The translations under genes were made by a program, and so were the position numbers. From Ginsengibacter hankyongi (GTDB lineage: Bacteria > Bacteroidota > Bacteroidia > Chitinophagales > Chitinophagaceae), in assembly GCF_008710285.1 (NCBI RefSeq), contig NZ_VYQF01000004.1, forward strand, positions 1 to 64,000: a DNA stretch of 64,000 bases. Reading direction: 5' to 3'. The notes beneath the pieces are model-generated. The model searched no databases. It had not been told where the DNA came from and worked only from the letters and a program-made list of their open reading frames with translations. This document shows, piece after piece, positions 38,521 through 62,646 of the stretch (position 1 is the first letter of the stretch; every line of letters starts with the position of its first letter).

Positions 38521-38576
38521 GTGATTAAAATCATATTTCAGGAAATATATCGCATAACATTATTTACTACCTTTCG
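38521..38576 (+). promoter_or_regulatory. nuo operon promoter with FNR/CRP-like site
   Basis: GTGATTAAAATCAT (38521-38534) holds TGAT-N4-ATCA. A likely Bacteroidota -7 element TACCTTTC starts at 38568, 34 bp after the site. An overlapping palindrome ATATTTC-AG-GAAATAT spans 38533-38548. nuoA starts 38 bp beyond the -7 box. Confidence 0.65.
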
Positions 38577-38613
38577 TTTATAAATATTCCTGCTCAACAA
38601 ATTGATTTTAAGT

Positions 38614-38964
38614 ATGGGATCTTCTTCAATGATTGTTTTAATAATAGCCGCACTCGCTTTTTCATCTATTGCTATTCTTATCGCTAAAATTGTTACAAAG
38701 TCTACGACCAATCCACAAAAGGGAGAGCCTTATGAATGTGGCATTCCTACGCATGGAAAAACATGGAAGCAACTGAACGTGGGCTATTATTTATTTGCAT
38801 TGATATTTTTAATTTTTGATGTGGAGCTGGTATTCCTTTATCCATGGGCGGTTGTGGCAAAACATGTAGGATGGATGGCATTGATTGAAATTATCATTTT
38901 CTTTTTTATATTATTTATGGGATTTTTATACGCACATAAAAAAGGCGCCTTAAAATGGAAGTAA
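38614..38964 (+). CDS. nuoA: NADH-quinone oxidoreductase subunit A
   Basis: A 116-residue three-helix membrane subunit of complex I. I use the ATG of MGSSSMIVL instead of an upstream TTG. Conserved features include [12 protein letters not shown] in the first loop and [20 protein letters not shown] with the acidic DVE of the quinone-channel loop. First gene of an operon that runs nuoA, B, C, D, H, I, J, K, L, M, N. It overlaps nuoB by 10 bp, which suggests coupled translation. Confidence 0.95.
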
Positions 38965-39494
38965 ATTCAAATACGGATAAAAAAGATTTTCCTGGGCAAA
39001 TACATGAAACTCCCGGAGGTGGCATTGTATTAAGTAAACTGGATGATGTGATCAACTGGGCACGTTCTAATTCATTATGGCCATTAACGTTTGCTACTAG
39101 TTGCTGTGGTATAGAAATGATGTCGGTTGCCGCTGCTAAATATGATTTCTCGCGTTTTGGTTTTGAAGTAGCAAGAGCTTCACCACGCCAGGCAGATGTG
39201 ATAATTATTGCCGGAACTATTGTAAATAAAATGGCGCCCGTTTTAAAAAGATTATACGACCAGATGGCTGATCCTAAATATGTAATTGCCATGGGTGCGT
39301 GTGCTATCAGCGGAGGACCATTTTTTTATAATACTTATTCAGTAGTAAAAGGTGCAGACCATGTGATACCGGTAGATGTATATGTAGCAGGTTGCCCGCC
39401 AAGGCCGGAGGCATTGTTGCATGCTTTAATAAGCTTGCAGCAAAAAATAAAAAGCGGTTTAACAAGGGAACAGATAAAGACAGGTAAAGAATAA
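38955..39494 (+). CDS. nuoB: NADH-quinone oxidoreductase subunit B
   Basis: A 179-residue peripheral subunit carrying the N2 iron-sulfur cluster next to the quinone site. Cluster ligands are visible as the tandem cysteines of TSCCGIEMM, the Cys of MGACAISGG and the Cys of [10 protein letters not shown]. The length is normal. It is followed by nuoC after 2 bp. Confidence 0.97.
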
Positions 39495-39496
39495 TT

Positions 39497-39955
39497 ATGA
39501 ACAACGAAGAGCTGAAAACCACGATAACAGCATTACTTCCTTCTGATACTTTTGAAGAGGGTGGTGAGTGGCTGAATATAAACGTAGAGCCGAAAGACTG
39601 GTTGCCATTAGCACAGCAATTGCGTAATGATGCATCATTATTCTTTGATTATCTCTTTTGCCTCACCTGCATCGACTGGAAGACGCATCTTACCATGGTG
39701 TATCATTTATCGTCTACGCGATGCCGTCATAACATTGTTGTAAAATCCAAACTTGACAGGAGCAATCCCGAAATAGAAACAGTTAGTAAGATATGGAAGA
39801 CAGCAGAGTTTCATGAAAGAGAAGTGTACGAAATGTTTGGGGTAAAATTTCTCAATCATCCTGATTTACGGTTATTGATTTTACCTGATGGATGGGAAGG
39901 AAAAAAACCAATGCTGAAAGATTTTGAAGACGCGGTAAATATGATAAGGCTATAA
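39497..39955 (+). CDS. nuoC: NADH-quinone oxidoreductase subunit C
   Basis: A 152-residue subunit of the 30-kDa type. The signature FHEREVYEMFGVKFLNHPDL and the following LPDGWEGKKPMLKDF are the family's C-terminal hallmark. It is separate from nuoD, not fused as in enterobacteria. A 102-bp gap with inverted AACAAGGAATA repeats divides it from nuoD. Confidence 0.95.
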   Translation: MNNEELKTTITALLPSDTFEEGGEWLNINVEPKDWLPLAQQLRNDASLFFDYLFCLTCIDWKTHLTMVYHLSSTRCRHNIVVKSKLDRSNPEIETVSKIWKTAEFHEREVYEMFGVKFLNHPDLRLLILPDGWEGKKPMLKDFEDAVNMIRL

Positions 39956-39960
39956 AAATA

Positions 39961-40048
39961 ATGAATAACGAACAAGGAATATTGAATGATGAAGTATGAA
40001 GCGCTTAAAAGATCAGTGTTCGTTATTCCTTGTTCAATATTCGATATT
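39961..40048. repeat. nuoC-nuoD intergenic inverted repeat, AACAAGGAATA family
   Basis: A forward unit AACGAACAAGGAATATTGAA and a reverse unit TTCGTTATTCCTTGTTCAAT face each other with about 30 bp between, so the transcript can form a stem of at least 12 bp on the shared GAACAAGGAATA core. The same family lies in two other gaps of the nuo operon. Confidence 0.9.
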
Positions 40049-40057
40049 TAAAAAAAT

Positions 40058-41173
40058 ATGGTTGAAGAAATAGGCACAACGGAAGAAGGTGATTTAATAA
40101 TCAATGTGGGGCCACAGCATCCTGCCACCCATGGCGTGTTGCATTTGGTGATTACATTAAATGGCGAGACCATAAAAAAGGTTGAACCTCATCTTGGTTA
40201 TATTCATCGTTCCATTGAAAAAATGTGTGAGAGCTTAACCTATCGGCAGTTTATTTATGTTACCAGCAGGATGGATTATCTCTCTGCTCACATTAACAAC
40301 CACGCGTGTGCGTTATGTGTAGAAAAAGGCCTTGACGTAGAAATACCGCGGAGGGCGCAGGTAATAAGAGTATTGATGGATGAGCTGACAAGAATTGCAT
40401 CGCATGAATTGTGGTGGGGAGCTATGGCTATGGATTTGGGAGCATTTACTCCCTTCTTTCATGCATTCAGGGAGAGGGAAACGATTAATGATATTATGGA
40501 AGAAACCTGTGGCGCAAGATTAACCATGAACTATATGGTCCCGGGTGGTTTGATGGCTGACCTCCATCCCAACTTTCAGAAGAGAGTAAAAGAATTTATC
40601 ACTTTATATAAATTAAAGATTAACGAATACGCGGAGCTTGTTACTGGTAACATTATATTTCAAAACCGGATGAAGGGCGTGGGATATTTATCTGCTGAAG
40701 ATGCAATTTCGTATGGATGCAGCGGGCCAACAGCAAGAGGGAGTGGAGTAAGTTGTGATATCCGCAAATTGTATCCTTATGAAGTATATGATAAACTGGA
40801 ATTTGATGAAGTGCTGGAAACGGAAGGTGATTCATTTGCCCGGTACATGGTGCGCATAGGAGAAATGAATCAATCGATAAAAATAATAGAGCAATTAATC
40901 GATAATATTCCCGATGGTGATTTTCAGGCCAAGACAAAGGTGGTTTTAAAATTACCTAAGGGAGAATTTTATTCAAGAGTAGAAACAGCAAGAGGTGAGT
41001 TGGGTGTATACATTGTGAGTGAAGGAGGGACTACACCTTATAGAATTAAATTTCGTTCGCCGGGATTTTCAAATCTTTCTGCTTTGGATCATATGGCAAG
41101 AGGCAGTAAGCTGGGTGATTTGGTAGCGATGATGGGAACATTGGATTTGGTGATACCGGATATTGACAGGTAA
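40058..41173 (+). CDS. nuoD: NADH-quinone oxidoreductase subunit D
   Basis: A 371-residue 49-kDa-type subunit that forms the quinone pocket with NuoB. Motifs: NVGPQHPATHGVLHL at the N-terminus, LGYIHRSIEKM, RMDYLSAHINNHA, and near the end YSRVETARGELGVYIVSEG and FRSPGFSNL. Slightly shorter than the E. coli NuoCD portion but complete. The next gene is nuoH: the usual nuoE, nuoF and nuoG are missing here. Confidence 0.97.
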   Translation: MVEEIGTTEEGDLIINVGPQHPATHGVLHLVITLNGETIKKVEPHLGYIHRSIEKMCESLTYRQFIYVTSRMDYLSAHINNHACALCVEKGLDVEIPRRAQVIRVLMDELTRIASHELWWGAMAMDLGAFTPFFHAFRERETINDIMEETCGARLTMNYMVPGGLMADLHPNFQKRVKEFITLYKLKINEYAELVTGNIIFQNRMKGVGYLSAEDAISYGCSGPTARGSGVSCDIRKLYPYEVYDKLEFDEVLETEGDSFARYMVRIGEMNQSIKIIEQLIDNIPDGDFQAKTKVVLKLPKGEFYSRVETARGELGVYIVSEGGTTPYRIKFRSPGFSNLSALDHMARGSKLGDLVAMMGTLDLVIPDIDR

Positions 41174-41250
41174 CCCCTAAATCCCCTAAAGGGGACTTTG
41201 GGAATTCTTTTAAAATTTAAATTAATTAGCCCCTTTAGGGGTTGGGGTAT
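41174..41250. repeat. nuoD-nuoH intergenic hairpin repeat, CCCCTAAAGGGG family
   Basis: CCCCTAAATCCCCTAAAGGGG (less one base) near 41175 pairs with CCCCTTTAGGGGTTGGGG ending at 41247. The repeat fills the whole gap and abuts the nuoH start. It occupies the place where nuoEFG stand in 14-gene operons. Confidence 0.85.
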
Positions 41251-42327
41251 ATGTGGAGCTTTAGTAAAATAGCAGACTTAGTTCATCAATCGTTGAATCA
41301 CACATTCAGCCCGACATTGGCTACCATTATTGAAATGGTGATTGTTGGTGTTTGTGTTATTGGATTGTTTGCTGTCTTAGGATTAGTATTGGTGATTATG
41401 GAACGAAAAGTTTCTGCATGGATACAAATAAGGCTGGGGCCAAATCGTGTGGGCCCAAAAGGGATGTTCCAATCATTGGCAGATACGGTGAAATTATTAG
41501 TGAAAGAAGGAATGACTCCATCAGGAGCTGATAAATTTTTATTCAACCTTGCTCCTTATATAGCGTTGATAGTTGCGATGTTGCTGATGGCTCCCTTGGC
41601 TTTTGCAAAGGATTTCCAGATGTGGGATTTGAATATTGGTGTGTTGTATGTATCTGCCATTTCATCGGTTTCGGTCATTAGTATTTTAATGGCAGGATGG
41701 TCCAGCAATAATAAATATTCTTTGATGGGTGCAATGCGCAGTGGTGCGCAAATCGTGAGTTATGAATTATCAGCAGGATTCTCTGTTCTCTCTGTGGTGG
41801 TGCTGGCCGGCAGTTTAAATCTGAATACTATCATTCAATCGCAGGCAGATGGATGGTGGATATTTAAAGGGCATATACCGGTAATGATTTCATTCGTGAT
41901 TTTTATAATAGCAGTAACAGCAGAAACAAACAGGGCGCCTTTTGATCTGGCAGAAGCTGAATCAGAATTAACCGCGGGTTTTCATACAGAATATTCAGGG
42001 ATGAAATTCGCTTTGTTCTTCCTTGCAGAATATGTGAATGTTTTTATTGTATGTGCTATTGGCGCAACATTATTTCTTGGAGGCTGGATGCCTTTTCATA
42101 TTGGCCATTGGGACGGGTTTAATCATGTGATGGATTATATCCCTTCGAGCATTTGGTTTTTTGGTAAGACGTTCTTTTTAATATTCCTGATCATGTGGTT
42201 CCGGTGGACTTTTCCCAGGTTGCGTATCGATCAGTTATTAAATCTTGAATGGAAGTATTTGTTGCCCATTAGTTTGTTTAATATTTTATTGGTAACAGCG
42301 ATGGCAATATTAGGATGGTATTTTTAA
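41251..42327 (+). CDS. nuoH: NADH-quinone oxidoreductase subunit H
   Basis: A 358-residue membrane subunit with about eight helices that links the quinone site to the proton channels. I start at the ATG of MWSFSKIADLV, directly after the hairpin repeat; an in-frame TTG upstream would lie in the repeat. Signatures: MERKVSAWIQIRLGPNRVGP, AETNRAPFDLAEAESELTAG and FHTEYSGMKFALFFLAEY. Length is within the family range. Confidence 0.96.
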   Translation: MWSFSKIADLVHQSLNHTFSPTLATIIEMVIVGVCVIGLFAVLGLVLVIMERKVSAWIQIRLGPNRVGPKGMFQSLADTVKLLVKEGMTPSGADKFLFNLAPYIALIVAMLLMAPLAFAKDFQMWDLNIGVLYVSAISSVSVISILMAGWSSNNKYSLMGAMRSGAQIVSYELSAGFSVLSVVVLAGSLNLNTIIQSQADGWWIFKGHIPVMISFVIFIIAVTAETNRAPFDLAEAESELTAGFHTEYSGMKFALFFLAEYVNVFIVCAIGATLFLGGWMPFHIGHWDGFNHVMDYIPSSIWFFGKTFFLIFLIMWFRWTFPRLRIDQLLNLEWKYLLPISLFNILLVTAMAILGWYF

Positions 42328-42339
42328 AATTAAAAATGA

Positions 42340-42420
42340 TGAATAGCGAACAAGGAATAGCGAACAAAGAAGTAAAAAAGTACATGCATTCATTATTCCT
42401 TGGTAATTATTCGATATTAT
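42340..42420. repeat. nuoH-nuoI intergenic inverted repeat, AACAAGGAATA family
   Basis: A forward unit GCGAACAAGGAATAGCGAAC and a reverse unit CATTATTCCTTGGTAATTAT are inverted with the CAAGGAATA core shared. The reverse unit ends in TTCGATATTAT just before nuoI, as in the nuoC-nuoD gap. Confidence 0.85.
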
Positions 42421-42425
42421 AAAAA

Positions 42426-42902
42426 ATGTTTATAGTTAAATACATAAAGGAAGTTTTCAATGCTGTAAAATCATTGTTTGTTGGCCTGAGGCGAACAGGA
42501 TATTATTTTACGCATCATAAAGAAATCATTACACAACAATATCCTGATAACAGGGACACATTGAATTTGCCTGAAAGGTTCAAAGGTGAAGTGGTAATGC
42601 CGCATAATGAAAACAATGAACATCGTTGCACCGGTTGCACTGCTTGCGAACTGGCTTGCCCCAATGGAACTATTAAAGTAATTACAAAATTTGATATAGG
42701 TACCGATGGTAAAAAGAAAAAAGCCATTGATAAATTAGTATATCACCTGGAGCTGTGCACCATGTGTAATTTATGTATAATCGCCTGTCCTTCGGATGCC
42801 ATTGTGATGGCGCAAACATTTGAACACAGTGTTTTTGATCGTGCCGAGTTAACTAAAATATTAAACAATCCCGGTTCTAAAATAATGGAGGGCGTAGAAT
42901 AA
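42426..42902 (+). CDS. nuoI: NADH-quinone oxidoreductase subunit I
   Basis: A 158-residue ferredoxin-like subunit with two 4Fe-4S motifs, CTGCTACELACPNGTI and CTMCNLCIIACPSDAI, holding the N6a and N6b clusters. In a complex lacking NuoEFG this subunit is the expected entry point for electrons, possibly from ferredoxin. Its stop codon overlaps the nuoJ start by 1 bp. Confidence 0.97.
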   Translation: MFIVKYIKEVFNAVKSLFVGLRRTGYYFTHHKEIITQQYPDNRDTLNLPERFKGEVVMPHNENNEHRCTGCTACELACPNGTIKVITKFDIGTDGKKKKAIDKLVYHLELCTMCNLCIIACPSDAIVMAQTFEHSVFDRAELTKILNNPGSKIMEGVE

Positions 42903-43429
42903 TGAGCGGATCAACGATTATATTTTATATGCTGGCGGCGCTTACTTTGGTGAGTGGAGTTTTTGCTGTAGGTACAAGGCAAATATTCAGGGCTGCAATC
43001 TTTTTATTGTTTTCTTTAATTGGCGTTGCGGGATTATATTTCTGGATGCAATATGAATTTATTGCAGCAGTTCAAATAGTGGTGTATGTGGGTGGCATAA
43101 CAGTATTGATCATCTTCTCTATTTTTTTAACACAACAGGCCGGAGACAAAATGCCCAAACAAAAGATAGGGCGACAAATTTTTTCAGCATTGGCAGCCTT
43201 TTTCGGATTTGCTTTGATTATGTTGCAACTGTTTCAACATACATTCACCGGCACTATTAATCAGCCAATGGAGCCGGGAGTTACAAACATTGGTACACAA
43301 ATGCTGGGAGTGAATAACGGCGGCTATGCGTTACCGTTTGAAGTAGTTAGTATGTTGTTGCTGGCCGCATTAATTGGGTGTATTGTAATTGCGATGAAAA
43401 CGACTGGGGGAATATCGAACAAGGAATAA
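42902..43429 (+). CDS. nuoJ: NADH-quinone oxidoreductase subunit J
   Basis: A 175-residue membrane subunit with five helices. Family features include YFWMQYEFIAAVQIVVYVGG and ITVLIIFSIFL in helix 3 and FEVVSMLLLAALIGCIVIAM at the end. The last residues (GGISNKE) and the stop codon are contributed by the AACAAGGAATA repeat, so insertion of the repeat probably reshaped the C-terminus. It is followed by the S23/IVP gene instead of directly by nuoK. Confidence 0.95.
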   Translation: MSGSTIIFYMLAALTLVSGVFAVGTRQIFRAAIFLLFSLIGVAGLYFWMQYEFIAAVQIVVYVGGITVLIIFSIFLTQQAGDKMPKQKIGRQIFSALAAFFGFALIMLQLFQHTFTGTINQPMEPGVTNIGTQMLGVNNGGYALPFEVVSMLLLAALIGCIVIAMKTTGGISNKE

Positions 43430-43470
43430 CGAATAACAAACAAGGAATATCGAATAATGAGGTAAAGAAA
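43410..43470. repeat. direct AACAAGGAATA repeats before the S23/IVP gene
   Basis: Two forward units in tandem, ATCGAACAAGGAATAACGAA and AACAAACAAGGAATATCGAA, the second followed by TAATGA. The first unit overlaps the nuoJ stop codon and the second ends just before the S23/IVP start. Confidence 0.9.
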
Positions 43471-43476
43471 ATACAA

Positions 43477-43863
43477 ATGAATACTGAAAGGAAATATGAC
43501 CTGGAAGATAGGCTGATTGATTTTGCTGTTTTAATAATACGAATAACAGAGAACTTGTTTAATACAAAGGCTGGGAATTATATAGGTGGACAATTAGTAA
43601 GATCGGGTACTTCTCCTGCATTACATTACGGAGAGGCACAAAGTGCAGAATCAAGAAATGATTTTATTCATAAACTTAAAATACTCTTGAAGGAATTAAG
43701 AGAATCGAGGAGTGCAATGAAGATTATTAAAAATGCTCCTTTAGCAGAGAATATGGAATTGGTAGAAAAAGGATTACTTGAATGCAATGAGTTGATTTCA
43801 ATTTTTGTAAAAAGTATAGAGACAGCGAAAAAGAATTTGGAGAATGAGAAATTGAAGAAATAA
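43477..43863 (+). CDS. S23/IVP four-helix-bundle protein inserted in nuo operon
   Basis: A 128-residue helical protein of the 23S rRNA intervening-sequence (S23, IVP; PF05635/TIGR02436) four-helix-bundle family: YDLEDRLIDFAVLIIRI, GGQLVRSGTSPALHYGEAQS, SRNDFIHKLKILLKELRESR and the final ELISIFVKSIETAKKNL helix. The start is the ATG of MNTERKYDLED; upstream in-frame residues come from the repeat. The family is classically encoded in excised segments of 23S rRNA genes and also occurs alone; its function is not settled. Here it splits nuoJ from nuoK and is enclosed by AACAAGGAATA-family repeats. It plays no known part in complex I. Confidence 0.9.
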   Translation: MNTERKYDLEDRLIDFAVLIIRITENLFNTKAGNYIGGQLVRSGTSPALHYGEAQSAESRNDFIHKLKILLKELRESRSAMKIIKNAPLAENMELVEKGLLECNELISIFVKSIETAKKNLENEKLKK

Positions 43864-43921
43864 TAAAAAATAATATGAATATAATGATGGGATTTTGATT
43901 AAGAGTTGGGCTTTTCCCTTC

Positions 43922-44024
43922 TACATTCATTATTCCTTGTTCAATATTCGATATTATGTTTAAATATGAAAACCGAAAGGAATAAAGAATAACGAACAAG
44001 GAATATCGAATAATGAAATAAAGA
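43922..44024. repeat. AACAAGGAATA-family repeats after the S23/IVP gene
   Basis: A reverse unit CATTATTCCTTGTTCAATAT with TTCGATATT, then about 30 bp later a forward unit AACGAACAAGGAATATCGAA with TAATGAAATAAAG, the latter just before nuoK. The end of the forward unit matches the tail of the unit before the S23/IVP gene. Confidence 0.9.
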
Positions 44025-44040
44025 AACAAAATTGAATTTA

Positions 44041-44355
44041 ATGTTTACACCCGGACTATATCATATTTTATTTATTAGTACAGCGCTTTTCTTTATTGGT
44101 GTATTTGGTTTTCTTACAAGAAAAAATTTAATCACCATCCTGATGAGTGTAGAATTGATATTGAATAGTGTGAATTTAAATTTTATTGCATTCAATAAAT
44201 ACCTGTGGCCTGATAAATTAGACGGATTATTTTTTACCATATTTATAATTGCGATTGCTGCTGCAGAAGCCGCAGTAGCTATTGCAATCATAATTAATTT
44301 ATATAGAAGCCATCATTCAATTGATGTGGATAATGCGGAAGAAATGAAATATTAA
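44041..44355 (+). CDS. nuoK: NADH-quinone oxidoreductase subunit K
   Basis: A 104-residue membrane subunit with three helices and the conserved ISTALFFIGVFGFLTRKNLI and ILMSVELILNSVNLNFIAF segments, including the helix Glu of MSVEL used in proton transfer. The ATG of MFTPGLYHI is chosen over an upstream TTG. Translation could depend on the repeats just before it. Confidence 0.95.
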   Translation: MFTPGLYHILFISTALFFIGVFGFLTRKNLITILMSVELILNSVNLNFIAFNKYLWPDKLDGLFFTIFIIAIAAAEAAVAIAIIINLYRSHHSIDVDNAEEMKY

Positions 44356-44373
44356 AATACAACATCAAACTAA

Positions 44374-46326
44374 ATGCTTAATGCAACTACCATAGCACTG
44401 ATCCCTCTGCTGCCACTGGCAGGTTTTTTAGTCCTTGGATTATTTGGAAGAAAATATTTTAAGAATTCATCCGGTATCATTGCAACTATCTTGTTACTGG
44501 CTGCAACTATTTTAGCAATCTATACCGCTTATGGTTATTTTTTCGAGTATGGCAAAGTGAATGGAGTTTATGAAAAATTTATTCCGCTAAAATATACATG
44601 GTTGCAATTCTCCGAAGGTGTTTCCATTGACATGGGTATAATGCTCGATCCCATAACCTGCATGATGCTGGTGGTGATAACTTTTGTTTCATTAATGGTG
44701 CACATCTATAGCCTGACCTACATGAAAGGAGAAGAACGATTTGCAACTTACTATTCTTTTTTGGGATTGTTCACTTTTTCCATGCTGGCATTAGTAATCT
44801 CTTCCAATGTTTTCCAAATCTATATTTTCTGGGAACTGGTGGGCGTTTCATCTTTTTTACTGATTGGTTTTTATTACGATAAACCCAGCGCTGTAGCGGC
44901 TTGCAAGAAAGCTTTTATTGTAACACGTTTTGCCGATTTGGGATTTTTAATCGGCATCTTAATACTTTCATTTTATTCGGGCACATTGGATTTTAGTGCC
45001 CTTATTCAAAGGTTAACAACACCGGGGTCAGCAGAATTAAGTGCCGCATTGTCTTCATCGTTTATGGGCATCTCTGCATTAACATGGGCAATGGTATTGG
45101 TTTTTATAGGTGCCGCAGGAAAAAGTGCGATGTTTCCTTTACAAATCTGGTTACCAGATGCAATGGAAGGACCTACTCCTGTTTCTGCATTGATACATGC
45201 TGCAACAATGGTGGTAGCGGGTGTATTTTTAGTTGCAAGATTATTTCCTGTTTTTGCATTATCTGCGCCGGATGCCCTGCGGTTAGTAGCTTATGTGGGA
45301 GCTATCTCCGCTTTGTTAGCGGCAATAATTGCGTGTACGCAAACCGATATAAAAAGAGTGCTGGCATTTTCAACCATATCGCAAATAGGTTATATGATGT
45401 TTGCATTAGGCGTCTCAAAGTATGGTGGCGAAGGCGGATTAGGTTATACCGCTTCCATGTTTCATTTATTTACGCACGCCATGTTTAAAGCGCTGTTGTT
45501 TTTGGGGGCAGGTTCCGTTATACATTTTATTCATAGTAACGAAATGAAAGATATGGGTGGATTGAGAAAATATTTGCCGGTAACGCATATTACTTTTTTA
45601 ATCGCCTGTCTCGCAATTGCAGGGATACCACCGTTTGCGGGCTTTTTCAGTAAAGAAGAAATTTTATCCGCGGCTTATCAAAACAATATGATTATTTATT
45701 GGATAGCCTTGTTTACTTCAGGACTTACTGCTTTTTATATGTTCCGTTTATACTTTGGGATATTTTGGAATAAGGCTCCCTCTCTGAAGGAGAGGGCGGG
45801 GGGTGAAGCTCACGCTCATGGCGAAGGAGGATTTGCAATGATGCTTCCATTGATTTTATTAGCCACTGGCGCAGCAGCAGCCGGGTTTATTCCTTTCGGA
45901 AATTTTGTTAGTTCAGATGGAAAGGGTTCAGAAAGTGCTTTTCATTTACAGTTTTCTATTGCACCGGTTTTGTTTGGTTTAACAGGAATTTTTATAGCGA
46001 TGTGGTTGTATAAAAAGGAAAATAATAAACCGGATATAATTGCAGCGTCGATGAATGGCTTATACAAATCAGCATGGAATAAATTTTATTTTGATGAAAT
46101 GTATTTATTTGTCACCAAAAAAATATTATTCAATTTGGTCGCAAAACCTGCAGCATGGATTGATAAAAATGTGGTTGATGGTTTGGTGAATGCAACGGGT
46201 AATACCACGATGTTTATTTCAAAAAAGATAAAGGGTATTCAATCAGGTAAAGTACAGCAATATGCAGCTTACTTTTTAGTGGCTGCAATAGCAGTGGCAG
46301 TGCTGTTTATTTATTGGTGGAAGTAA
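44374..46326 (+). CDS. nuoL: NADH-quinone oxidoreductase subunit L
   Basis: A 650-residue antiporter-like proton-pumping subunit with about 16 helices. Recognisable parts are YIFWELVGVSSFLLIGFYY, LPDAMEGPTPVSALIHAATM, LFTHAMFKALLFLGAGSVIH and the long lateral helix near the C-terminus. Around residues 468-478 the protein has an in-frame insertion KAPSLKERAGGEAHAHG whose DNA (45777-45799) is a perfect hairpin repeat. The insertion falls in a loop between helices, so the protein can still be functional. nuoM starts 17 bp after its stop. Confidence 0.95.
   Translation: MLNATTIALIPLLPLAGFLVLGLFGRKYFKNSSGIIATILLLAATILAIYTAYGYFFEYGKVNGVYEKFIPLKYTWLQFSEGVSIDMGIMLDPITCMMLVVITFVSLMVHIYSLTYMKGEERFATYYSFLGLFTFSMLALVISSNVFQIYIFWELVGVSSFLLIGFYYDKPSAVAACKKAFIVTRFADLGFLIGILILSFYSGTLDFSALIQRLTTPGSAELSAALSSSFMGISALTWAMVLVFIGAAGKSAMFPLQIWLPDAMEGPTPVSALIHAATMVVAGVFLVARLFPVFALSAPDALRLVAYVGAISALLAAIIACTQTDIKRVLAFSTISQIGYMMFALGVSKYGGEGGLGYTASMFHLFTHAMFKALLFLGAGSVIHFIHSNEMKDMGGLRKYLPVTHITFLIACLAIAGIPPFAGFFSKEEILSAAYQNNMIIYWIALFTSGLTAFYMFRLYFGIFWNKAPSLKERAGGEAHAHGEGGFAMMLPLILLATGAAAAGFIPFGNFVSSDGKGSESAFHLQFSIAPVLFGLTGIFIAMWLYKKENNKPDIIAASMNGLYKSAWNKFYFDEMYLFVTKKILFNLVAKPAAWIDKNVVDGLVNATGNTTMFISKKIKGIQSGKVQQYAAYFLVAAIAVAVLFIYWWK
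45777..45799. repeat. in-frame hairpin repeat inside nuoL
   Basis: CCCTCTC and GAGAGGG form a perfect stem around TGAAG, in the wider GCTCCCTCTCTGAAGGAGAG sequence that resembles repeats common in Bacteroidota genomes. It is a multiple of three when read with its flanks and does not break the frame. Confidence 0.8.
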
Positions 46327-46343
46327 AAATAATTTGCAAAAGA

Positions 46344-47825: not shown

Positions 47826-47838
47826 AATAAAAAACCGG

Positions 47839-49239: not shown

Positions 49240-49242
49240 GTT

Positions 49243-49635: not shown

Positions 49636-49638
49636 TAT

Positions 49639-49662
49639 AACGGATAAGCCTATCCGTTTTTT
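49639..49662 (+). terminator. rho-independent terminator of the nuo operon
   Basis: AACGGATA, loop AGCC, then TATCCGTT and a T run: a perfect 8-bp stem 4 bp after the stop codon of the gene following nuoN. Confidence 0.9.
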
Positions 49663-49768
49663 ACCGTTCTGGTCTGAAAATATTTTATATTTGGAAGTAG
49701 AATAGTAATAGTGGATAAAAGAGAACCATGATATATAGTTAACGTCCCACAATTGCAGATCGATCAAC

Positions 49769-51160: not shown

Positions 51161-51208
51161 CTCTCCCATTTGTTTAATATTTAGTATCAATTCGCCTTTC
51201 TCCCGAAG

Positions 51209-51274
51209 ATGATTAAAATCATTATCCGGATTGATTTTCATCCTCGTTATTCATTATATAATTATCTACCTATG
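51209..51274 (+). promoter_or_regulatory. ppdK promoter with FNR/CRP-like site
   Basis: ATGATTAAAATCAT (51209-51222) is the same palindrome as before nuoA and tnaA. The likely -7 box TACCTATG starts at 51267, 45 bp after the site. ppdK starts 22 bp beyond the box. Confidence 0.65.
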
Positions 51275-51295
51275 CATTGCTTAAAATAATTATTT

Positions 51296-54049: not shown

Positions 54050-54067
54050 AATGGACCTGATAACTAG

Positions 54068-54109
54068 GAAGGATACACGAAAATTTTGTTTTCGTATATC
54101 CTTCTTTTA
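54068..54109 (+). terminator. rho-independent terminator of ppdK
   Basis: GAAGGATA-C-ACGAAAA pairs with TTTTCGT-A-TATCCTTC through a long stem, followed by TTTTAT. It starts 19 bp after the ppdK stop codon. Confidence 0.9.
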
Positions 54110-54142
54110 TTAATCAAACCTCATGAAAACTATTTTCAGGAA

Positions 54143-54186
54143 ATGATTAAAATCATATTTAGTAATATTTTACTTAACTACTTTTA
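54143..54186 (+). promoter_or_regulatory. tnaA promoter with FNR/CRP-like site
   Basis: ATGATTAAAATCAT (54143-54156) with TTTCAGGAA just before it, a sequence also found next to the nuoA site. A likely -7 box TACTTTTA starts at 54179, 23 bp after the site; tnaA begins about 135 bp further on. Confidence 0.55.
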
Positions 54187-54320
54187 ATTATAAATTCATT
54201 CATGAGCATCTGGAAAAATATTATCAGGAAACCCAGCTAATTGCTCCACTCATTTTACTCCTTAAGTATTCAATTTATTATAAACATTTACCGGTAGTAA
54301 TACTAATTAATTATTCATGT

Positions 54321-55694: not shown

Positions 55695-55713
55695 TTCAGC
55701 AAAAGAAATAGAA

Positions 55714-55773
55714 ATGAAAAAAATTATAAAAAGAAGCTGGGCCGAACCTTATAAAATAAAAATGGTGGAGTTG
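55714..55773 (+). pseudogene. 5-prime remnant of a second tryptophanase-family gene
   Basis: The frame starts MKKIIKRSWAEPYKIKMVE, the characteristic beginning of tryptophanase/tyrosine phenol-lyase proteins of a different subgroup (RSWAEPYKIKMVEP), and loses similarity after about 19 residues. It lies 20 bp after tnaA and abuts the end of the convergent DHOD-like gene. Confidence 0.6.
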
Positions 55774-55797
55774 CTCGATTCTTTCTGTCATGCTACT

Positions 55798-56787
55798 TTA
55801 TTTAACTCCTTCCAGTATTTTAATATAATTGGCCCTTTGATAAGCAGTAGGGTCAGAAATTTTTTGCTGGCTCATATTCCCTTTAAATGAATTAATATCA
55901 TCATAGCCCATCATATACATCCATTCCTGTAATTCCTTGTTCATAGTTTTTAAATAAGGAATATCATTTTTATATAAAGAAGAAGCTGTCATCACTACAT
56001 CAGCACCGGCAAGTATATATTTTATTACTTCAACAGCGCTTTGTACACCGGTAGTAGCAGCAAGTGAAAGATCTACTTTTCCATACAATAAACCAATCCA
56101 TAATAATGGCAACCTTATCTCATTAGATTCGCTATAATTCAAATCAGTTTTAATAATCATTTCATTGATATCAAAATCAGGTTGATAGAAGCGATTGAAT
56201 AAAACCAGTGCATCTGCGCCCGCCTTTTTCATCCGCAATGACATATTCCCCATAGCGCTGAAATAAGGACTTAATTTTACAGCAACAGGAATTTTTACGG
56301 TATGCTTTATGGATTCAATAATATTCAGATAGCGGTGTTCTACCTCTGCAGAAGACATACTTATTTCCCCGGGAATGAAAAATATATTTACTTCAATAGC
56401 ATCAGCACCGGCCTGTTCCATTTGCTTTGAATAATTAATCCATCCTTCATTGGTAATGCCATTTAAGCTGCCGATAACTGGAACGTGTACACGTTCTTTT
56501 GCTTTGCGTATATTCTCAAGGTAATCATCAACACCTACATTAAAATCATTAAGGTTGGGGAAATAGTCTAATGCTTCCGCAGACGAATTATTGGTTTTGG
56601 ACATTACAAATTTTAACCTGGCTTCTTCTTTTCGTATCTGTTCTTCAAACAACGAAAACAATACGACAGCGCCTGCGCCATTATCTTCCATCTTCACAAT
56701 ATTATCTGTTTTCTCGGATAAGGTGCAGGCGGATACTACAATTGGCGAATCCAATTTAAGTCCCATGTAGGTTGAATGTATTTTCAT
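55798..56787 (-). CDS. dihydroorotate dehydrogenase-like protein
   Basis: A 329-residue FMN-binding TIM-barrel protein. I start at MKIHSTYMGLKLDSPIVVSA, because the 40 residues upstream are encoded by a hairpin repeat (CLPSGRQV) and unrelated sequence. Barrel motifs are seen in ALVLFNRFYQPDF, VPVIGSLNGIT, GADAIEVNIFF and VAVKLSPYFSA, typical of the dihydroorotate-dehydrogenase-like family often found with PFOR genes. True pyrimidine synthesis is not implied; PreA-like activity on an unknown substrate is possible. It lies downstream of nifJ on the same strand and may share its transcript. Confidence 0.8.
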   Translation of the reverse strand: MKIHSTYMGLKLDSPIVVSACTLSEKTDNIVKMEDNGAGAVVLFSLFEEQIRKEEARLKFVMSKTNNSSAEALDYFPNLNDFNVGVDDYLENIRKAKERVHVPVIGSLNGITNEGWINYSKQMEQAGADAIEVNIFFIPGEISMSSAEVEHRYLNIIESIKHTVKIPVAVKLSPYFSAMGNMSLRMKKAGADALVLFNRFYQPDFDINEMIIKTDLNYSESNEIRLPLLWIGLLYGKVDLSLAATTGVQSAVEVIKYILAGADVVMTASSLYKNDIPYLKTMNKELQEWMYMMGYDDINSFKGNMSQQKISDPTAYQRANYIKILEGVK

Positions 56788-56826
56788 GTGCTTATATCTT
56801 TTGACTAAAACTATTTTGTTTAAATA

Positions 56827-56854
56827 CACCTGCCTGCCCGAAGGCAGACAGGTG
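56827..56854. repeat. hairpin repeat between nifJ and DHOD-like gene
   Basis: CACCTGCCTGCC pairs with GGCAGACAGGTG (one mismatch) around CGAA. This is the CCTGCC-type repeat often found in Bacteroidota; read in frame it yields CLPSGRQV. It sits 40 bp upstream of the DHOD-like start. Confidence 0.8.
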
Positions 56855-56918
56855 GTCTCCTCGTTGATTTGGTTAATCCTCCATAAGCTTATATGGAGGT
56901 TGCACAAGTCAAATATTC

Positions 56919-59900
56919 TTATTTTCCAACTGGAACAAAATCACTTGCTTTCTTTGTTGCCAGTTCTTCGTAAGTTTTCCATTTCAGGTTCACCAAGTCC
57001 TGCGCTTGTTTCATCAACCTATCTGCTGCTTCAGGATTTGTTATCGTCAAAACTTTATATCTTAATTCATTGTATGCATAATCTTTTAATGCCATATTTG
57101 GCCTTGGTGAATCCAGTACAAATGGATTTTGATTTTTCTTTCTTAGGATAGGATTATATCTCAGCAAAGGCCAGTGTCCGCTGGCAACTGCTTTGTGTTG
57201 CTGGTCTAATCCATTTTTCAGATCATATCCATGAGCGATACAATGGCTGTAGGCAAGGATAATTGAAGGTCCGTCATAAGCTTCGGCTTCCCGCATTGCT
57301 AATAATGTTTGTTGTGGATTAGCACCAAAGGCCACTCTTGCCACATACACATTGCCGTAAGAAATAGCTTGCATCGCCAAATCTTTTTTACCACCGCTTT
57401 TACCACCTGCCGCAAATTTTGCCGTTGCTGCTGTTGGTGTTGATTTTGAAGATTGACCACCTGTATTTGAATACACTTCTGTATCGAGTACTAAAATATT
57501 TATGTTTCTTCCGCTGGCCAATGCATGATCCAACCCTCCATAACCAATATCATAAGCCCATCCATCGCCACCTACTAACCATACACTGCGGCGAACCAGT
57601 TGATCAGCTACTGATAAAAGAAGATTGGCTGCAGATGACGTCATTGTTTTCAATTTTTCTTTTAATCCATCCACTCTTTGATGTTGCAGAACCAATTCTG
57701 ATTCTAATGTTTGTTTAGCATCTAATATTTCCTTTACATCAGCTTCGCCTAATTCATCTTTTAATTCTAATAACAATTGCCTTGCAACATTCAATTGTTT
57801 ATCCGCGGTAACACGCATGCCCAATCCAAACTCTGCATTGTCTTCAAACAAAGAGTTGCTCCATGCCGGTCCACGGCCTTCTTTATTTATTGACCATGGA
57901 GTTGTCGGCAGATTACCACCATAAATAGATGAACAACCAGTTGCATTTGCAATTAATAAACGATCGCCAAATAATTGTGATAGCAATTTTAAGTAAGGCG
58001 TTTCTCCGCAACCGGCGCACGCTCCTGAAAATTCAAATAATGGCTCTAAGAATTGTGCACCGTGTACAGTAGAGAAGTCAATTTTTGAACGGTCGTTCCA
58101 GGAAATGTCTTCAAAGAATTCAATATTGGCTTTTTCCTGTTCGAGTATGGGTTCTTTTTCGCCCATATTGATAGCCTTACGATTACGGTTAGACGGATCT
58201 GTTGCCGGGCAAACTTCCACACATAAATTACAACCGGTACAATCTTCTACATACACCTGCAATGAATATTGTGTTTCAGGGAAACCTCTTGCATTGATCG
58301 GCGCTGATTTGAATTCCTGCGGTGCTTTTTTCAAATTATCCTTGTGATAGAACTTAGCTCGTATTACACTGTGCGGACATACATAGGCACAGTTGCCGCA
58401 TTGTATACACAGATCGGGCTCCCATAAAGGCACCAGGTCAGAAACATTTCTTTTTTCCCATTGAGTAGTACCACTTGGATAAGTACCATCATTTGGCATC
58501 ATACTTACGGCTAACTGATCGCCATGATCTGCCATCATTACTGCGGTAACATTTTTCACAAAGTCAGGCGCTTTAGCAGATACCGTTAGTAAGTTATGAT
58601 CAGCAGCAGAAACATTTTTTGGATAATCCACTTCATATAAATTCGCAAGGGTTGCGTCCACCGCTAAAAAGTTCTGATCAATTACTTTTTGGCCTTTCTT
58701 GAAATATGTTTTTTCAATTGCTTTTTTTATTTGTTTAATGGCATCTTCTTTCGGTAATACACCTGATAAAGCAAAATAGCATGTTTGCATGATGGTATTG
58801 ATACGTCCACTCATGCCTGTTTCTCTTGCCACTGTTGTCGCATCAATTACATAAAATTTTATTTTTTTATCAATGATACTTTTCTGTACCTGTCCCGTTA
58901 GTTTACTCCACACTTCGTCTTTGTCATAAGGGCTGTTTAGTAAGAATGTGGCACCTTCACCTGCAAAGGCCAGCATTTCTACTTTTTCTGTAAAGTTGAA
59001 CTGGTGGCATGCAATAAAATCTGCTTTTGAAATTAAATAGGGCGCTCTTATTGGCTTTGGTCCAAAACGTAAATGAGATACTGTTCTTGCGCCCGATTTT
59101 TTAGAATCATATACAAAATATCCCTGTGCATATAAGCTGGTATTCTCACCTATAATTTTGATGGTATTTTTATTAGCACCAACAGTTCCATCAGAGCCTA
59201 ATCCAAAAAATAATCCCTGTCTCCATGCTGATTCATCTAATTTATAAGATGGATCATATTCAAGACTTGTGAATGTTACATCATCATTAATACCAATAGT
59301 GAATCCATTTTTAGGATGATCTTTTTTCAATTCATCATATATTCCTTTCACCATCGCCGGTGTAAATTCCTTAGATGAAAGGCCATAACGGCCGCCAACA
59401 ATGTTCGGTAATCTTTTCAGTTTTCCCTGTTGCAATGCATCCACCAATGTTGATAAAACATCCTGGTACATTGGTTCACCGGCGGCACCGGATTCTTTTG
59501 TTCTGTCTAATACAGCAATTGATTTTACAGTTGGCGGCAACACTCTAATTAAATATTCTAATGAGAAAGGCCTGTATAACCTAACGGTGATAACACCGGT
59601 TTTTTCTGCGACTGCATTTAAGGCATTGACAGTTTCAGAAACAGTTTCACTTCCGGAACCCATGATGATGATTATTTGTTCTGCATCAGCAGCGCCGGTA
59701 TATTCAAACAGTTCGTATTTTCTTCCCGTCATTTTTTCAAAATCGTTCATCACTTCTTCAACAATGCCTGGCATACTATTGTAAAACTTATTTACAGTTT
59801 CTCTTCCCTGGAAATAAACGTCAGGGTTTTGTGCTGTTCCTCTTATGAATGGATGTTCAGGATTCAAACCTCTTTTACGGTGAGCAATAACCAGATCATC

Positions 59901-60575
59901 CGGTATCATTGATTTTATTTGTTCATCGCTTAACAGTTCCAGTTTATTTACTTCATGTGAAGTACGGAAACCATCAAAAAAATGTACAATAGGAATTCTT
60001 GATTTTAAAGTAGCAACCTGTGCTATCAACGCAAAGTCATGCGCTTCCTGAACGCTGGCAGAGCTCAACATAGCAAAGCCGGTAGTTCTTGCTGCCATTA
60101 CATCCTGGTGGTCACCAAAGATGGATAAGCCCTGTGTTGCTAATGAGCGTGCTGCAACATGAAAAACAGCAGGTGTTAACTCGCCGGCAATTTTATACAT
60201 GTTGGGCAACATCAGCATTAAACCTTGTGACGCAGTAAACGTTGTAGTGAGTGAACCGGTTTGTAATGCACCATGCACTGTACCTGCTGCACCGCCTTCA
60301 CTCTGCATTTCAATAACATCGGGAACATTACCCCAGATATTTTTTATTCCTTTTGAAGCCCATTCATCTGCGAGTTCAGCCATGGTGGATGATGGCGTAA
60401 TTGGATAGATGGCACAAACTTCGTTTACCCTGTAAGCTACATAAGCCGCTGCTTCATTTCCATCTATTGTTGCGATCAATTTTTTATTAACTGCCATCAA
60501 CGGTTCACCCGATACGTCTGACTTTTGCGGAACACTACGGCTTTCTTTTAAAATTGGTGTTATACTATTTTCCAT
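56919..60575 (-). CDS. nifJ: pyruvate:ferredoxin (flavodoxin) oxidoreductase
   Basis: A 1218-residue homodimeric-type PFOR that converts pyruvate and CoA to acetyl-CoA and CO2, reducing ferredoxin. Order of domains: a 25-residue leader then TPP-dependent domain I (YPITPSSTMAEL), domain II with GSGSETVSETVNAL, ferredoxin domain with CIQCGNCAYVCPHSVI and CTGCNLCVEVCPATD, and the TPP-binding domain with ACAGCGETPYLK, GGDGWAYDIGYGGLDH and YSNTGGQSSKSTPT. All four domains are complete and the length is slightly above the usual 1170-1190. It is the second gene after the GltD-like flavoprotein (21-bp gap), so both are one transcription unit. Confidence 0.96.
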   Translation of the reverse strand: MENSITPILKESRSVPQKSDVSGEPLMAVNKKLIATIDGNEAAAYVAYRVNEVCAIYPITPSSTMAELADEWASKGIKNIWGNVPDVIEMQSEGGAAGTVHGALQTGSLTTTFTASQGLMLMLPNMYKIAGELTPAVFHVAARSLATQGLSIFGDHQDVMAARTTGFAMLSSASVQEAHDFALIAQVATLKSRIPIVHFFDGFRTSHEVNKLELLSDEQIKSMIPDDLVIAHRKRGLNPEHPFIRGTAQNPDVYFQGRETVNKFYNSMPGIVEEVMNDFEKMTGRKYELFEYTGAADAEQIIIIMGSGSETVSETVNALNAVAEKTGVITVRLYRPFSLEYLIRVLPPTVKSIAVLDRTKESGAAGEPMYQDVLSTLVDALQQGKLKRLPNIVGGRYGLSSKEFTPAMVKGIYDELKKDHPKNGFTIGINDDVTFTSLEYDPSYKLDESAWRQGLFFGLGSDGTVGANKNTIKIIGENTSLYAQGYFVYDSKKSGARTVSHLRFGPKPIRAPYLISKADFIACHQFNFTEKVEMLAFAGEGATFLLNSPYDKDEVWSKLTGQVQKSIIDKKIKFYVIDATTVARETGMSGRINTIMQTCYFALSGVLPKEDAIKQIKKAIEKTYFKKGQKVIDQNFLAVDATLANLYEVDYPKNVSAADHNLLTVSAKAPDFVKNVTAVMMADHGDQLAVSMMPNDGTYPSGTTQWEKRNVSDLVPLWEPDLCIQCGNCAYVCPHSVIRAKFYHKDNLKKAPQEFKSAPINARGFPETQYSLQVYVEDCTGCNLCVEVCPATDPSNRNRKAINMGEKEPILEQEKANIEFFEDISWNDRSKIDFSTVHGAQFLEPLFEFSGACAGCGETPYLKLLSQLFGDRLLIANATGCSSIYGGNLPTTPWSINKEGRGPAWSNSLFEDNAEFGLGMRVTADKQLNVARQLLLELKDELGEADVKEILDAKQTLESELVLQHQRVDGLKEKLKTMTSSAANLLLSVADQLVRRSVWLVGGDGWAYDIGYGGLDHALASGRNINILVLDTEVYSNTGGQSSKSTPTAATAKFAAGGKSGGKKDLAMQAISYGNVYVARVAFGANPQQTLLAMREAEAYDGPSIILAYSHCIAHGYDLKNGLDQQHKAVASGHWPLLRYNPILRKKNQNPFVLDSPRPNMALKDYAYNELRYKVLTITNPEAADRLMKQAQDLVNLKWKTYEELATKKASDFVPVGK

Positions 60576-60596
60576 TTTTAATAAATTATTAAATTG

Positions 60597-62228
60597 TCAA
60601 ACTGTAACAGGTTCCGGAACCATTTCAATTGCATGGCACGGGCATTGCTCATAACATACCGCACAACCCGTACAGGCGTCATAATTAAAATTATAACGGT
60701 TACCCTTACCTAGTTTTATGATAGCATCTTCAGGGCATGCGCCGAAGCATCCGTCACACTCAAAACAGTTACCACAGCTAAGGCAACGCTGGGCTTCGAA
60801 TCTCGCTTCTGGTTCGGATAAGCCTGCAACTACTTCATCAAAGCTTTTTATCGCAACTGCCGGTGCAAGTTTGTCCTGCGCTTTTTGTGGCGCATCTGTT
60901 TTATACCACATGTGCAGTTTACGATAACTGGCGGTGGGATGTTTATCAGGTTTTAAGTAAGTTTTCCCAGACAGGTAACCGTTAATATAACGGGCTGCTT
61001 TTTTACCCTGCCCGATGGCAATGGTAGCACTCCTGTTTTCACCCGGAAGCACATCGCCACCTGCAAAAATTCCATCATAGCCGGTCATGCGTTGCGCATC
61101 TATGTTCACCGTTCCATCATCATTAATTACTACGCCTGTAAGAGAAAGGAGAAAATTAGAATCTGATTCCTGCTTATGAGCATTTATTAATACATCCGCT
61201 TCAATAGTTTCAAACTCACCTGTACCCGCGGTTTTTCCTCTTTCCACTTTCAATTTCTCCAGCGTAATTGTTTTATTTTTAATTGATGTGATACTTTTTA
61301 AAAGTTGTACATCTACACCTTCTTCCATTGCGTCCTCCGTTTCATAATCATAAGCCGGCATCATTTTTTTATCTCCGGGGAAATACACTGACACTTGTGA
61401 ATTCAATCTCTTTATAATGCGGGCAATATATAAAGCCAGCTTACCACCACCATAAACTACTACTTTCTTGTGTGCGTAAGGCGATGTGTATGATTCCAAT
61501 TCATTGAAGAAAGAAAACGCATCCGTGATGTACACTGAATTATCGTGCCTGAACTCTTCATCATGTATATGTTGCGCACCAATGGCAAGATAGACGGCAT
61601 CAAAGTTGCCCACTTTCTTTGCCATTAAAACATCGGTTACTTTATAATTCAATTTTATTTTTACTCCTAGCCGCTCGATGCGATTGATCTCTGCATCCAA
61701 TATGTATTTTGGCAAACGATAATCCGGGATACCAGTCCATAAAAGTCCACCCGCATGATTGCCCGCTTCATAAATTTCAACAGTATGGCCCATACGTACC
61801 AGGTGATAAGCTGCAGATAAACCCGATGGCCCTGCGCCTATTATTAAAATTCTTTTGCCTGTTGAATAGGATAAAAACTGGATAGGCCATTTTTGTTTTA
61901 TTGCCTCATCGCCAATATATCTTTCAACAGCATGAATATTCACCGTAGTATCAATATGTGTTCTGTTGCAACCTGTCTCACAGGGCTTCACACATACACG
62001 TCCCATGATAGCGGGGAACGGATTATCTTCTACAAGCGTTTGGAATGCTTCAAAATAATTGCCAGCCTGTGCATGAGCCATCCATGCCTGTATATTTTCT
62101 CCCGCGGGGCACGCACTGTTGCAAGGGGGCATAAAATCAAAGTATACCGGACGCTGAGATCGTTTGGGGCCGGTACCTTCAGCATGAATGGTGAGATCAA
62201 CCGGTTTAGTAATATCAAACATATGCAT
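60597..62228 (-). CDS. GltD-like NADPH:ferredoxin flavoprotein
   Basis: A 543-residue cytoplasmic flavoprotein resembling the small subunit of glutamate synthase and NADPH-dependent ferredoxin oxidoreductases. It has N-terminal cysteine motifs (PPCNSACPAGENIQAWM, CVKPCETGC), an FAD fold with IIGAGPSGLSAAYHL, an NADPH fold with VVYGGGKLALYIARI and two C-terminal 4Fe-4S motifs (CLSCGNCFECDGCFGACP and CTGCAVCYEQCPCHAI). The start may be two codons later (MFDITKP). It heads the PFOR operon and could transfer electrons between ferredoxin and NAD(P)H. A regulator-like palindrome lies 104 bp upstream. Confidence 0.85.
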   Translation of the reverse strand: MHMFDITKPVDLTIHAEGTGPKRSQRPVYFDFMPPCNSACPAGENIQAWMAHAQAGNYFEAFQTLVEDNPFPAIMGRVCVKPCETGCNRTHIDTTVNIHAVERYIGDEAIKQKWPIQFLSYSTGKRILIIGAGPSGLSAAYHLVRMGHTVEIYEAGNHAGGLLWTGIPDYRLPKYILDAEINRIERLGVKIKLNYKVTDVLMAKKVGNFDAVYLAIGAQHIHDEEFRHDNSVYITDAFSFFNELESYTSPYAHKKVVVYGGGKLALYIARIIKRLNSQVSVYFPGDKKMMPAYDYETEDAMEEGVDVQLLKSITSIKNKTITLEKLKVERGKTAGTGEFETIEADVLINAHKQESDSNFLLSLTGVVINDDGTVNIDAQRMTGYDGIFAGGDVLPGENRSATIAIGQGKKAARYINGYLSGKTYLKPDKHPTASYRKLHMWYKTDAPQKAQDKLAPAVAIKSFDEVVAGLSEPEARFEAQRCLSCGNCFECDGCFGACPEDAIIKLGKGNRYNFNYDACTGCAVCYEQCPCHAIEMVPEPVTV

Positions 62229-62646
62229 GATAATTTTGACAGAGTGAGTTTACAGTTATAACTGGTTATTAAAACTTTAGCAAAGTAGAAATTAGCTCTG
62301 CCACAAAAGATGATATTCTTCAATATAAAATATGATTCGTATCATGATAATTTTCTTGAAGTTTTTAGTAGTTAGAAAGGCCGATTGAATAAAAATGAAT
62401 AAAAAAGAGACAAATGATATTTTTCTCAGATCGATTTATAATAAAGAGTTTTGCTATTAGAAGATAAAAGGCCAGGTATTAAAATCATTTGATAATCTTC
62501 TTACCTATATTTCAATAAAGCGATAATGAAGCAGGAACTAAAGAAACCGCCTCTTAATAAATTAATAATGAATTAAATTCTGGCAATGGTTAATTTTATA
62601 AGAAGAAGTGTCAGATGAACTTTCTATAAAATCCAAACCGATTTAG
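62229..62646. other. divergent promoter region
   Basis: Holds the palindrome and -7 box of the GltD-like/PFOR operon (62280-62345) and a weaker TATTAAAATCAT half-site near 62477-62488. I see no gene. Confidence 0.5.
62280..62345 (-). promoter_or_regulatory. promoter of GltD-like/PFOR operon with FNR/CRP-like site
   Basis: ATGATTCGTATCAT (62332-62345) is a perfect TGAT-N4-ATCA palindrome with flanking A/T. On the minus strand the candidate -7 box TACTTTGC begins at 62287, 45 bp after the site, the same spacing as for ppdK. The gene starts 52 bp beyond the box. Confidence 0.55.

Follow-up and report, generated by a model that had tools for sequence, protein, structure and literature searches.

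The window analysed here, the first 64,000 nucleotides of contig NZ_VYQF01000004.1 of Ginsengibacter hankyongi (part of contig C28 of its 5.5-Mb genome, G000), carries the 12-bp palindrome TGAT-N4-ATCA upstream of nuoA, ppdK, a tnaA-like gene and an operon with genes for a GltD-like protein and pyruvate:ferredoxin oxidoreductase (PFOR). The locus raises the question whether these palindromes are operators and, if so, which protein reads them. A preliminary description of the window had proposed an anaerobic regulon with FNR-type sites phased in steps of 11 bp. Judged from sequence, the palindromes are genuine control sites that serve energy genes across the whole genome. We consider it probable that they are the operators of a CRP/FNR-family activator, probably a protein in which a receiver domain is fused to a CRP part (receiver-CRP), that would run a low-oxygen energy regulon.

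Palindromes in the window, the genome and its relatives

All four palindromes of the preliminary description exist, each one base to the right of where it had been placed, reading TGATTAAAATCA at 38522, 51210 and 54144 and TGATTCGTATCA at 62333, and the common core of the first three (TGATTAAAATCAT) was confirmed. The gene names given there are broadly correct as well, with nuoA, ppdK, GltD-like and PFOR confirmed and tnaA being a member of the tryptophanase/tyrosine phenol-lyase family. The site scan and the genes downstream of the sites can be listed as follows; later nuo genes were named by the order of open reading frames (ORFs) alone.

38522..38533, + strand: operator TGATTAAAATCA before nuoA of the second (paralogous) nuo operon
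38614..49239, + strand: second nuo operon, nuoA and nuoB identified
51210..51221, + strand: distal operator TGATTAAAATCA before ppdK
51232..51243, + strand: proximal ppdK operator TGATTTTCATCC, one mismatch, 22 bp from the distal site, ending 23 bp before the -7 box
51296..54049, + strand: ppdK, pyruvate phosphate dikinase gene
54144..54155, + strand: operator TGATTAAAATCA before the tryptophanase/tyrosine phenol-lyase family gene, weakly conserved
54321..55694, + strand: tryptophanase/tyrosine phenol-lyase family gene (tnaA below)
62333..62344, - strand: distal operator TGATACGAATCA (read on the - strand) before the GltD-like/PFOR operon
62311..62322, - strand: proximal GltD-like operator TGAAGAATATCA, one mismatch, 22 bp from the distal site
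55798..62228, - strand: likely operon with the following three genes
60597-62228, - strand: GltD-like NAD(P) oxidoreductase
56919-60575, - strand: PFOR
55798-56907, - strand: dihydroorotate dehydrogenase-like

Altogether the window contains six exact matches, compared to 2.03 expected (one of 100 shuffles reached six), and all six are intergenic according to the simple ORF calling made in this analysis, which defined gene borders and intergenic or coding status throughout. Two of them, at 25596 and 26004, were absent from the preliminary list.

Enrichment was analysed in 1.194 Mb of the genome chosen regardless of sites, of which 146 kb are intergenic. The pattern was detected 66 times, 26 times between and 40 times within genes, demonstrating that it is not as frequent inside genes as between them (17.8 intergenic versus 3.8 coding matches per 100 kb). 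Eleven permuted half-sites used as controls yielded 33 intergenic matches out of 299 when pooled and one to five each (Fisher p 2e-7 against 26/66), and among spacers of 0-12 the enrichment was unique to spacer 4, with no other spacer exceeding nine intergenic matches. A palindromic operator with an N4 spacer enriched upstream of genes is what a CRP/FNR regulon should display. The whole genome holds 225 exact sites versus 46 for the reversed pattern ACTA-N4-TAGT, a weaker control because the reversed pattern has a bias of its own. Just outside TGAT, A is favoured over T (58% against 21%, both half-sites of the 26 intergenic sites counted), which puts the consensus near ATGAT-N4-ATCAT.

To follow the sites into relatives, exact matches up to 320 bp upstream of the start were counted, the own genome being included in all four gene groups. 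They were found at 6/8 ppdK, 4/5 GltD-like, 18/94 nuoA and 2/26 tnaA promoters, and coding controls gave 0 in each group (nuoA 0/94). These denominators leave out 2/10 rows for ppdK, 2/28 for TnaA (fragments L091 and L092) and 3/97 for NuoA; the NuoA group also omits 13 more distant NuoB loci (L146-L158) and combines two collections with partly the same genomes (L135 and L192 are identical). For the GltD-like group 5/5 were used, and weaker matches as well as the fragments L104 and L105 were left out. Conservation, named as a check in the preliminary description, is thus borne out for three genes out of four, with the site present at a minority of nuoA loci; sites at tnaA are rare. Across relatives the half-sites are kept, and the N4 bases and exact positions vary.

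Beyond the window, sites precede a fused ccoN/ccoO-type cbb3 oxidase gene (COX1 plus FixO), a radical-SAM gene resembling oxygen-independent hemN (named from reading), hemA with a divergent ferrochelatase-like gene (also from reading), and hypC with a divergent proton-antiporter-type subunit. Further targets encode a universal stress protein (Usp), a phosphoenolpyruvate (PEP) synthase-like protein, phosphoribosyl pyrophosphate (PRPP) synthetase, a cation P-type ATPase and a fatty acid desaturase. Enrichment, recurrence and targets together support the earlier proposal of a regulon of energy genes with operators of the CRP/FNR type.

The genome carries two nuo gene sets, one in the window (38614-49239) and one at G000:C12:78593-89833, and the exact operator precedes only the former. 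NuoB of the window belongs to a separate group, with 82-98% identity in several relatives and 55% to the other copy; its best named matches are from Ferruginibacter and other Chitinophagaceae metagenome-assembled genomes (~91-96% identity). Around the paralogous NuoB (C12:88872-89456) no exact intergenic site was detected in C12:70-105 kb, and one-mismatch sites lie at 89525 and 90088 of the same contig.

Three exact sites stand between hypC and the divergent antiporter-type subunit (L177, C1:587832-591627), and a distant NuoB homologue follows farther along the same strand, possibly part of a membrane-bound hydrogenase. Eight tandem sites form a second cluster at G000:C1:149-196 kb, near Usp-like, DUF892, cation P-type ATPase and PEP synthase-like genes; we presume a resemblance to the hypoxia/persistence islands of other phyla.

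Tandem spacing and the distance to the -7 box

A search for second sites with up to one mismatch near the 26 intergenic ones gave 11 counts at a distance of exactly 22 bp (pairs of two exact sites being counted from both ends), compared to three counts in total at all other distances of 12-49 bp (two at 33, one at 25). A tandem pattern with this spacing and up to two mismatches matched the genome 44 times versus once for the reversed pattern, and 40 of the 44 matches are intergenic (binomial p 3e-32); the 44 sites could only partly be assigned to scanned genes.

Downstream of the sites, the box TAnnTTTG (at most one mismatch) was detected at a gap of 23 bp in 10/47 promoters and of 45 bp in 12/47, with either gap in 21/47. 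Each promoter was counted once in this set, which includes stretches chosen because they bear sites. In 500 letter shuffles the two gaps together reached a mean of 1.45 and a maximum of 6, and the flanks of coding sites (n=106) gave one and two boxes at gaps 23 and 45, respectively. Without mismatch the box occurs at gap 23 in 5/47 and at gap 45 in 1/47 promoters, and the remaining 26/47 promoters contain no box with up to one mismatch at either gap. TAnnTTTG at a fixed distance from the operator, one mismatch allowed, is the arrangement expected of a Bacteroidota sigma-A promoter. According to the part of PMC9723704 available, the -7 box occupies -12 to -5 in Flavobacterium psychrophilum, and the two gaps therefore place the site centres at -41.5 and -63.5. 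Such a fixed position near -41.5 or farther upstream on the same face, here seen as box distance in the 21 promoters, is characteristic of CRP/FNR regulons.

Three of the boxes in the window were found by the box scan and the fourth by hand count:

38568..38575, + strand: candidate -7 box TACCTTTC (nuoA), gap 34
51267..51274, + strand: candidate -7 box TACCTATG (ppdK), gap 45
54179..54186, + strand: candidate -7 box TACTTTTA (tnaA), gap 23
62280..62287, - strand: candidate -7 box TACTTTGC (GltD-like), gaps 23 (proximal operator) and 45 (distal operator)

The gaps of 34, 45 and 23 bp given earlier for the first three promoters are correct, with one mismatch in each box, whereas no box with up to one mismatch was found before the GltD-like gene. 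The gap of 45 bp claimed there leads to TACTTTGC, which has two mismatches to TAnnTTTG but fits TAnnTTGY, a variant of the -7 box reported in F. psychrophilum (PMC9723704, same part). Phased spacing between sites and -7 box was thus found in 21/47 promoters, but the proposed step of 11 bp is not general, as a gap of 34 occurs in 1/47 promoters, nuoA itself, and second sites lie 22 bp away. With 10 promoters at gap 23 and 12 at gap 45, the earlier values of 23 and 45 therefore represent two standard positions, two helical turns apart, and the tandem distances as well as the box gaps led us to reject 11-bp phasing in favour of 22 bp.

The basic unit would accordingly be the 12-bp TGAT-N4-ATCA with A favoured outside TGAT, ending 23 bp before the sigma-A -7 box and centred at about -41.5. 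A second site is frequently present 22 bp upstream (~-63.5), a distance of two helical turns that keeps both sites on one face of the DNA, and a second dimer could bind there; some promoters have only the 45-bp or only the 23-bp site.

A receiver-CRP fusion as candidate regulator

The preliminary description had asked for a CRP/FNR-family gene, and five genes with HTH_Crp_2, the only Crp helix-turn-helix (HTH) model searched, were found in the genome. The most likely regulator on these data is a receiver-CRP fusion encoded beside a PAS histidine kinase, and not FNR.

C1:811239-812849: PAS/PAS/HisKA/HATPase kinase gene, just upstream of the receiver-CRP gene
C1:810176-811234: receiver-cNMP-HTH fusion (receiver-CRP), 352 residues, directly after the kinase gene

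Over 59 genomes the tandem pattern gave 534 matches versus 31 for the reversed pattern, with a mean of 12.1 in the 39 genomes carrying receiver-CRP (the own genome included) compared to 3.2 in the 20 without it (p 1e-6; per Mb p 5e-5). Presence was defined as a match of ~300 residues or more (G013: 303), plus G009, in which the gene is split over two contigs. The reversed-pattern control showed no such dependence (p 0.33). Within the genus, too, carriers of receiver-CRP have the higher counts (15 against 5, p 0.003). The sites also cluster around the gene: 23/112 tandem sites lie within 20 kb of it versus 1.0 expected (8 genomes), a test limited to genomes with printed site positions, with G048 (0/1 near) left out and G023 entering with 7/8 sites. 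In the own genome seven tandem sites fall within this distance.

The protein family itself has the phosphoacceptor residues of a response regulator, Asp, Thr/Ser and Lys: D52 and K104 were found in 30/30 receivers and T/S at 82 likewise in 30/30 (own included). Glu317 and Arg321 of the recognition helix are present in all 29 proteins covering them. Kinase-like sequence was detected just upstream at 26/30 loci (own included), often with only the C-terminal part matched. Matches to FixL and DosP were obtained for PAS1 in the kinase of the own genome, and its His62 is aligned with the histidine of both that we take to be the proximal heme ligand, which is suggestive of heme sensing by this domain.

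Receiver-CRP would be phosphorylated by the adjoining PAS histidine kinase in response to low oxygen or redox state, and its binding to the sites would activate transcription; the low-oxygen response is deduced from the targets and the neighbouring PAS kinase. One protein would thereby join the roles of FixJ (receiver) and FixK (DNA binding), which are separate in alphaproteobacteria. The FixLJ-FixK system shares the PAS kinase, the receiver and the CRP-type activator, but there a separate FixJ acts on the fixK promoter, whereas here the receiver is fused to the CRP part and the kinase is adjacent. As far as the accessible part of PMC4999443 goes, FnrN/FixK of alphaproteobacteria control cco (cbb3), hemA, hemN and, in Rhizobiales, nuo, and cbb3 oxidase, hem genes and nuo are likewise among the targets found here. 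The FnrN/FixK consensus in that source is TTGANCNNGATCAANG; the sites described here differ by the A favoured outside TGAT, the tandem 22-bp pairs and the Bacteroidota -7 box.

Whether the arrangement is widespread is evenly balanced in our judgement: many members of the order (39/59 sampled genomes, own included) may use a phosphorylation-gated, FixJ-FixK-like fusion, fed by a PAS kinase, in place of FNR as low-oxygen master switch, acting via paired operators 22 bp apart at -41.5/-63.5 on TAnnTTTG promoters. If true, this would be an unusual natural CRP/FNR activator under two-component control. Among the literature matches listed (titles and beginnings of abstracts), no receiver-CRP low-oxygen regulator and no tandem 22-bp CRP/FNR sites in Bacteroidota were found. 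The operator code with its exact geometry, the candidate regulator and the ~40 intergenic tandem sites make the question directly testable, and the low-oxygen regulons of uncultured Chitinophagaceae could become predictable.

Several observations weigh against this reading. Exact sites stand at just 18/94 nuoA and 2/26 tnaA promoters, and none of the listed intergenic exact sites lies upstream of the receiver-CRP/kinase operon. In nine of the 39 genomes with receiver-CRP, the tandem pattern matches no more than five times. Conversely, G029 has 11 tandem matches (reversed 0), yet no HTH_Crp_2 gene was found there, and seven matches as well as an exact nuoA site occur in G002, a genome of 59% completeness in which receiver-CRP has no full match. 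The co-occurrence statistics for receiver-CRP ignore phylogeny and include the own genome. At the kinase, PAS1 shares the aligned proximal histidine with the heme-PAS of FixL but carries Met at the place of a FixL arginine that we take to be the distal residue, and just 5/26 upstream kinase matches (own included) extend over the PAS1 histidine, which is His in each of the five; the 1500-bp flank cuts some of the matches short. Finally, genomes with a second Crp/Fnr gene, L036, have more tandem sites, both overall (p 0.001) and among receiver-CRP carriers (p 3e-4).

Other regulators, other signals and known systems

The last observation leads to the possibility, which we regard as a minor one, that these sites have another reader among the Crp/Fnr proteins of the genome, chiefly L036 (C28:235584-236177), or several acting jointly. 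As in receiver-CRP, Glu and Arg stand four positions apart in the putative recognition helix of L036, and a tandem site with two mismatches lies 53 bp before the gene. However, the three genomes with L036 and without receiver-CRP have few sites (1, 3 and 3; p 0.65), receiver-CRP genomes without L036 are also enriched (p 2e-4), and there is no good L036 ortholog in G037 (29 sites), G013 or G014 (19 sites in each of these two); presence of L036 here includes the fragments in G009, G016 and G018. The sites moreover cluster near the receiver-CRP gene, the only gene for which clustering was tested. Since site counts are low without receiver-CRP, L036 as sole regulator fits less well than receiver-CRP, but its added effect among receiver-CRP carriers indicates that it may share the sites.

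In the stretch L170:15584-18195 (C28:235584-238195), L036 is followed by a gene for a membrane protein without Pfam match and by one that resembles RIC/ScdA, neighbours that suggest L036 to be a nitric-oxide regulator. In two other HTH_Crp_2 proteins, L035 and L037, the helix carries Arg-Glu...Arg, which we take to be CRP-like.

Carbon, energy or some other stress signal, instead of oxygen, is likewise a rather unlikely input to the CRP-type sites. Stress and carbon targets such as Usp, PEP synthase-like, PRPP synthetase and cation P-type ATPase would fit such a signal, but cbb3 oxidase, the hemN-like gene, PFOR and hydrogenase maturation are among the targets as well, PAS1 resembles the oxygen sensors FixL and DosP, and the expected input is phosphorylation and not a small ligand. 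E. coli CRP, which acts from class I and class II positions and recognises the half-site TGTGA (here TGAT), shares the cNMP-binding fold and HTH_Crp_2 with the candidate, whereas residues of the cyclic AMP pocket, compared by reading with the pocket motif, do not appear recognisable here. Carbon sensing has been predicted for Bacteroidota CRP/FNR proteins, namely the homologs of Saprospiraceae and Flavobacteriales from a wastewater reactor (PMC8510549, as far as available). Their site matrices were, in contrast to the sites described here, taken from E. coli or phylogenetic studies, and the words 'receiver' and 'tandem' are absent from the main text of that source.

A true FNR, that is, an oxygen-labile iron-sulphur regulator binding TTGAT-N4-ATCAA, as the preliminary description had favoured, is very improbable. 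The core TGAT-N4-ATCA and the target gene class agree with it, and FNR of Proteobacteria, like Anr, shares this core; the class II position of FNR near -41.5 and its anaerobic target classes are also encountered here. However, none of the five HTH_Crp_2 genes starts with an FNR-like cysteine pattern, as judged by reading, with the start of L038 uncertain (its frame contains scattered cysteines if begun at the first GTG), and receiver-CRP has one Cys in 352 residues and thus no cysteine cluster. Its input is apparently phosphorylation. At the outer base T is not preferred (21% of half-sites, against 58% for A). FNR reads this T with a serine; the aligned residue in the receiver-CRP family is Ile (ES[VLM]IR, 29 proteins), which fits. 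Cysteine content and outer base therefore both disfavour FNR.

Chance palindromes in AT-rich intergenic DNA, for which the AT-rich motif and the window with just 6 sites versus 2 expected might speak, are refuted by the eleven permuted half-sites and twelve other spacers without enrichment, the exact 22-bp spacing, the 23/45-bp gaps and the recurrence of the sites in relatives.

The window sites beyond the four discussed are the following:

25596..25607, - strand: exact site TGATCAACATCA (on the - strand) before an alpha/beta hydrolase gene (24615-25547), with TAATTTTA at gap 23
25982..26015, - strand: tandem site (one exact, one with two mismatches) before a small 2TM-domain gene (25626-25904)

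The gene called tnaA (54321-55694) scored higher with the tyrosine phenol-lyase model (566.9 bits) than with the tryptophanase model TIGR02617 (517.2 bits), both being under the curated cut-offs. Two genes divergent from the GltD-like operon, one with DUF488 and one with a hemerythrin domain (62647-63504), face its tandem site at a distance of ~300 bp.

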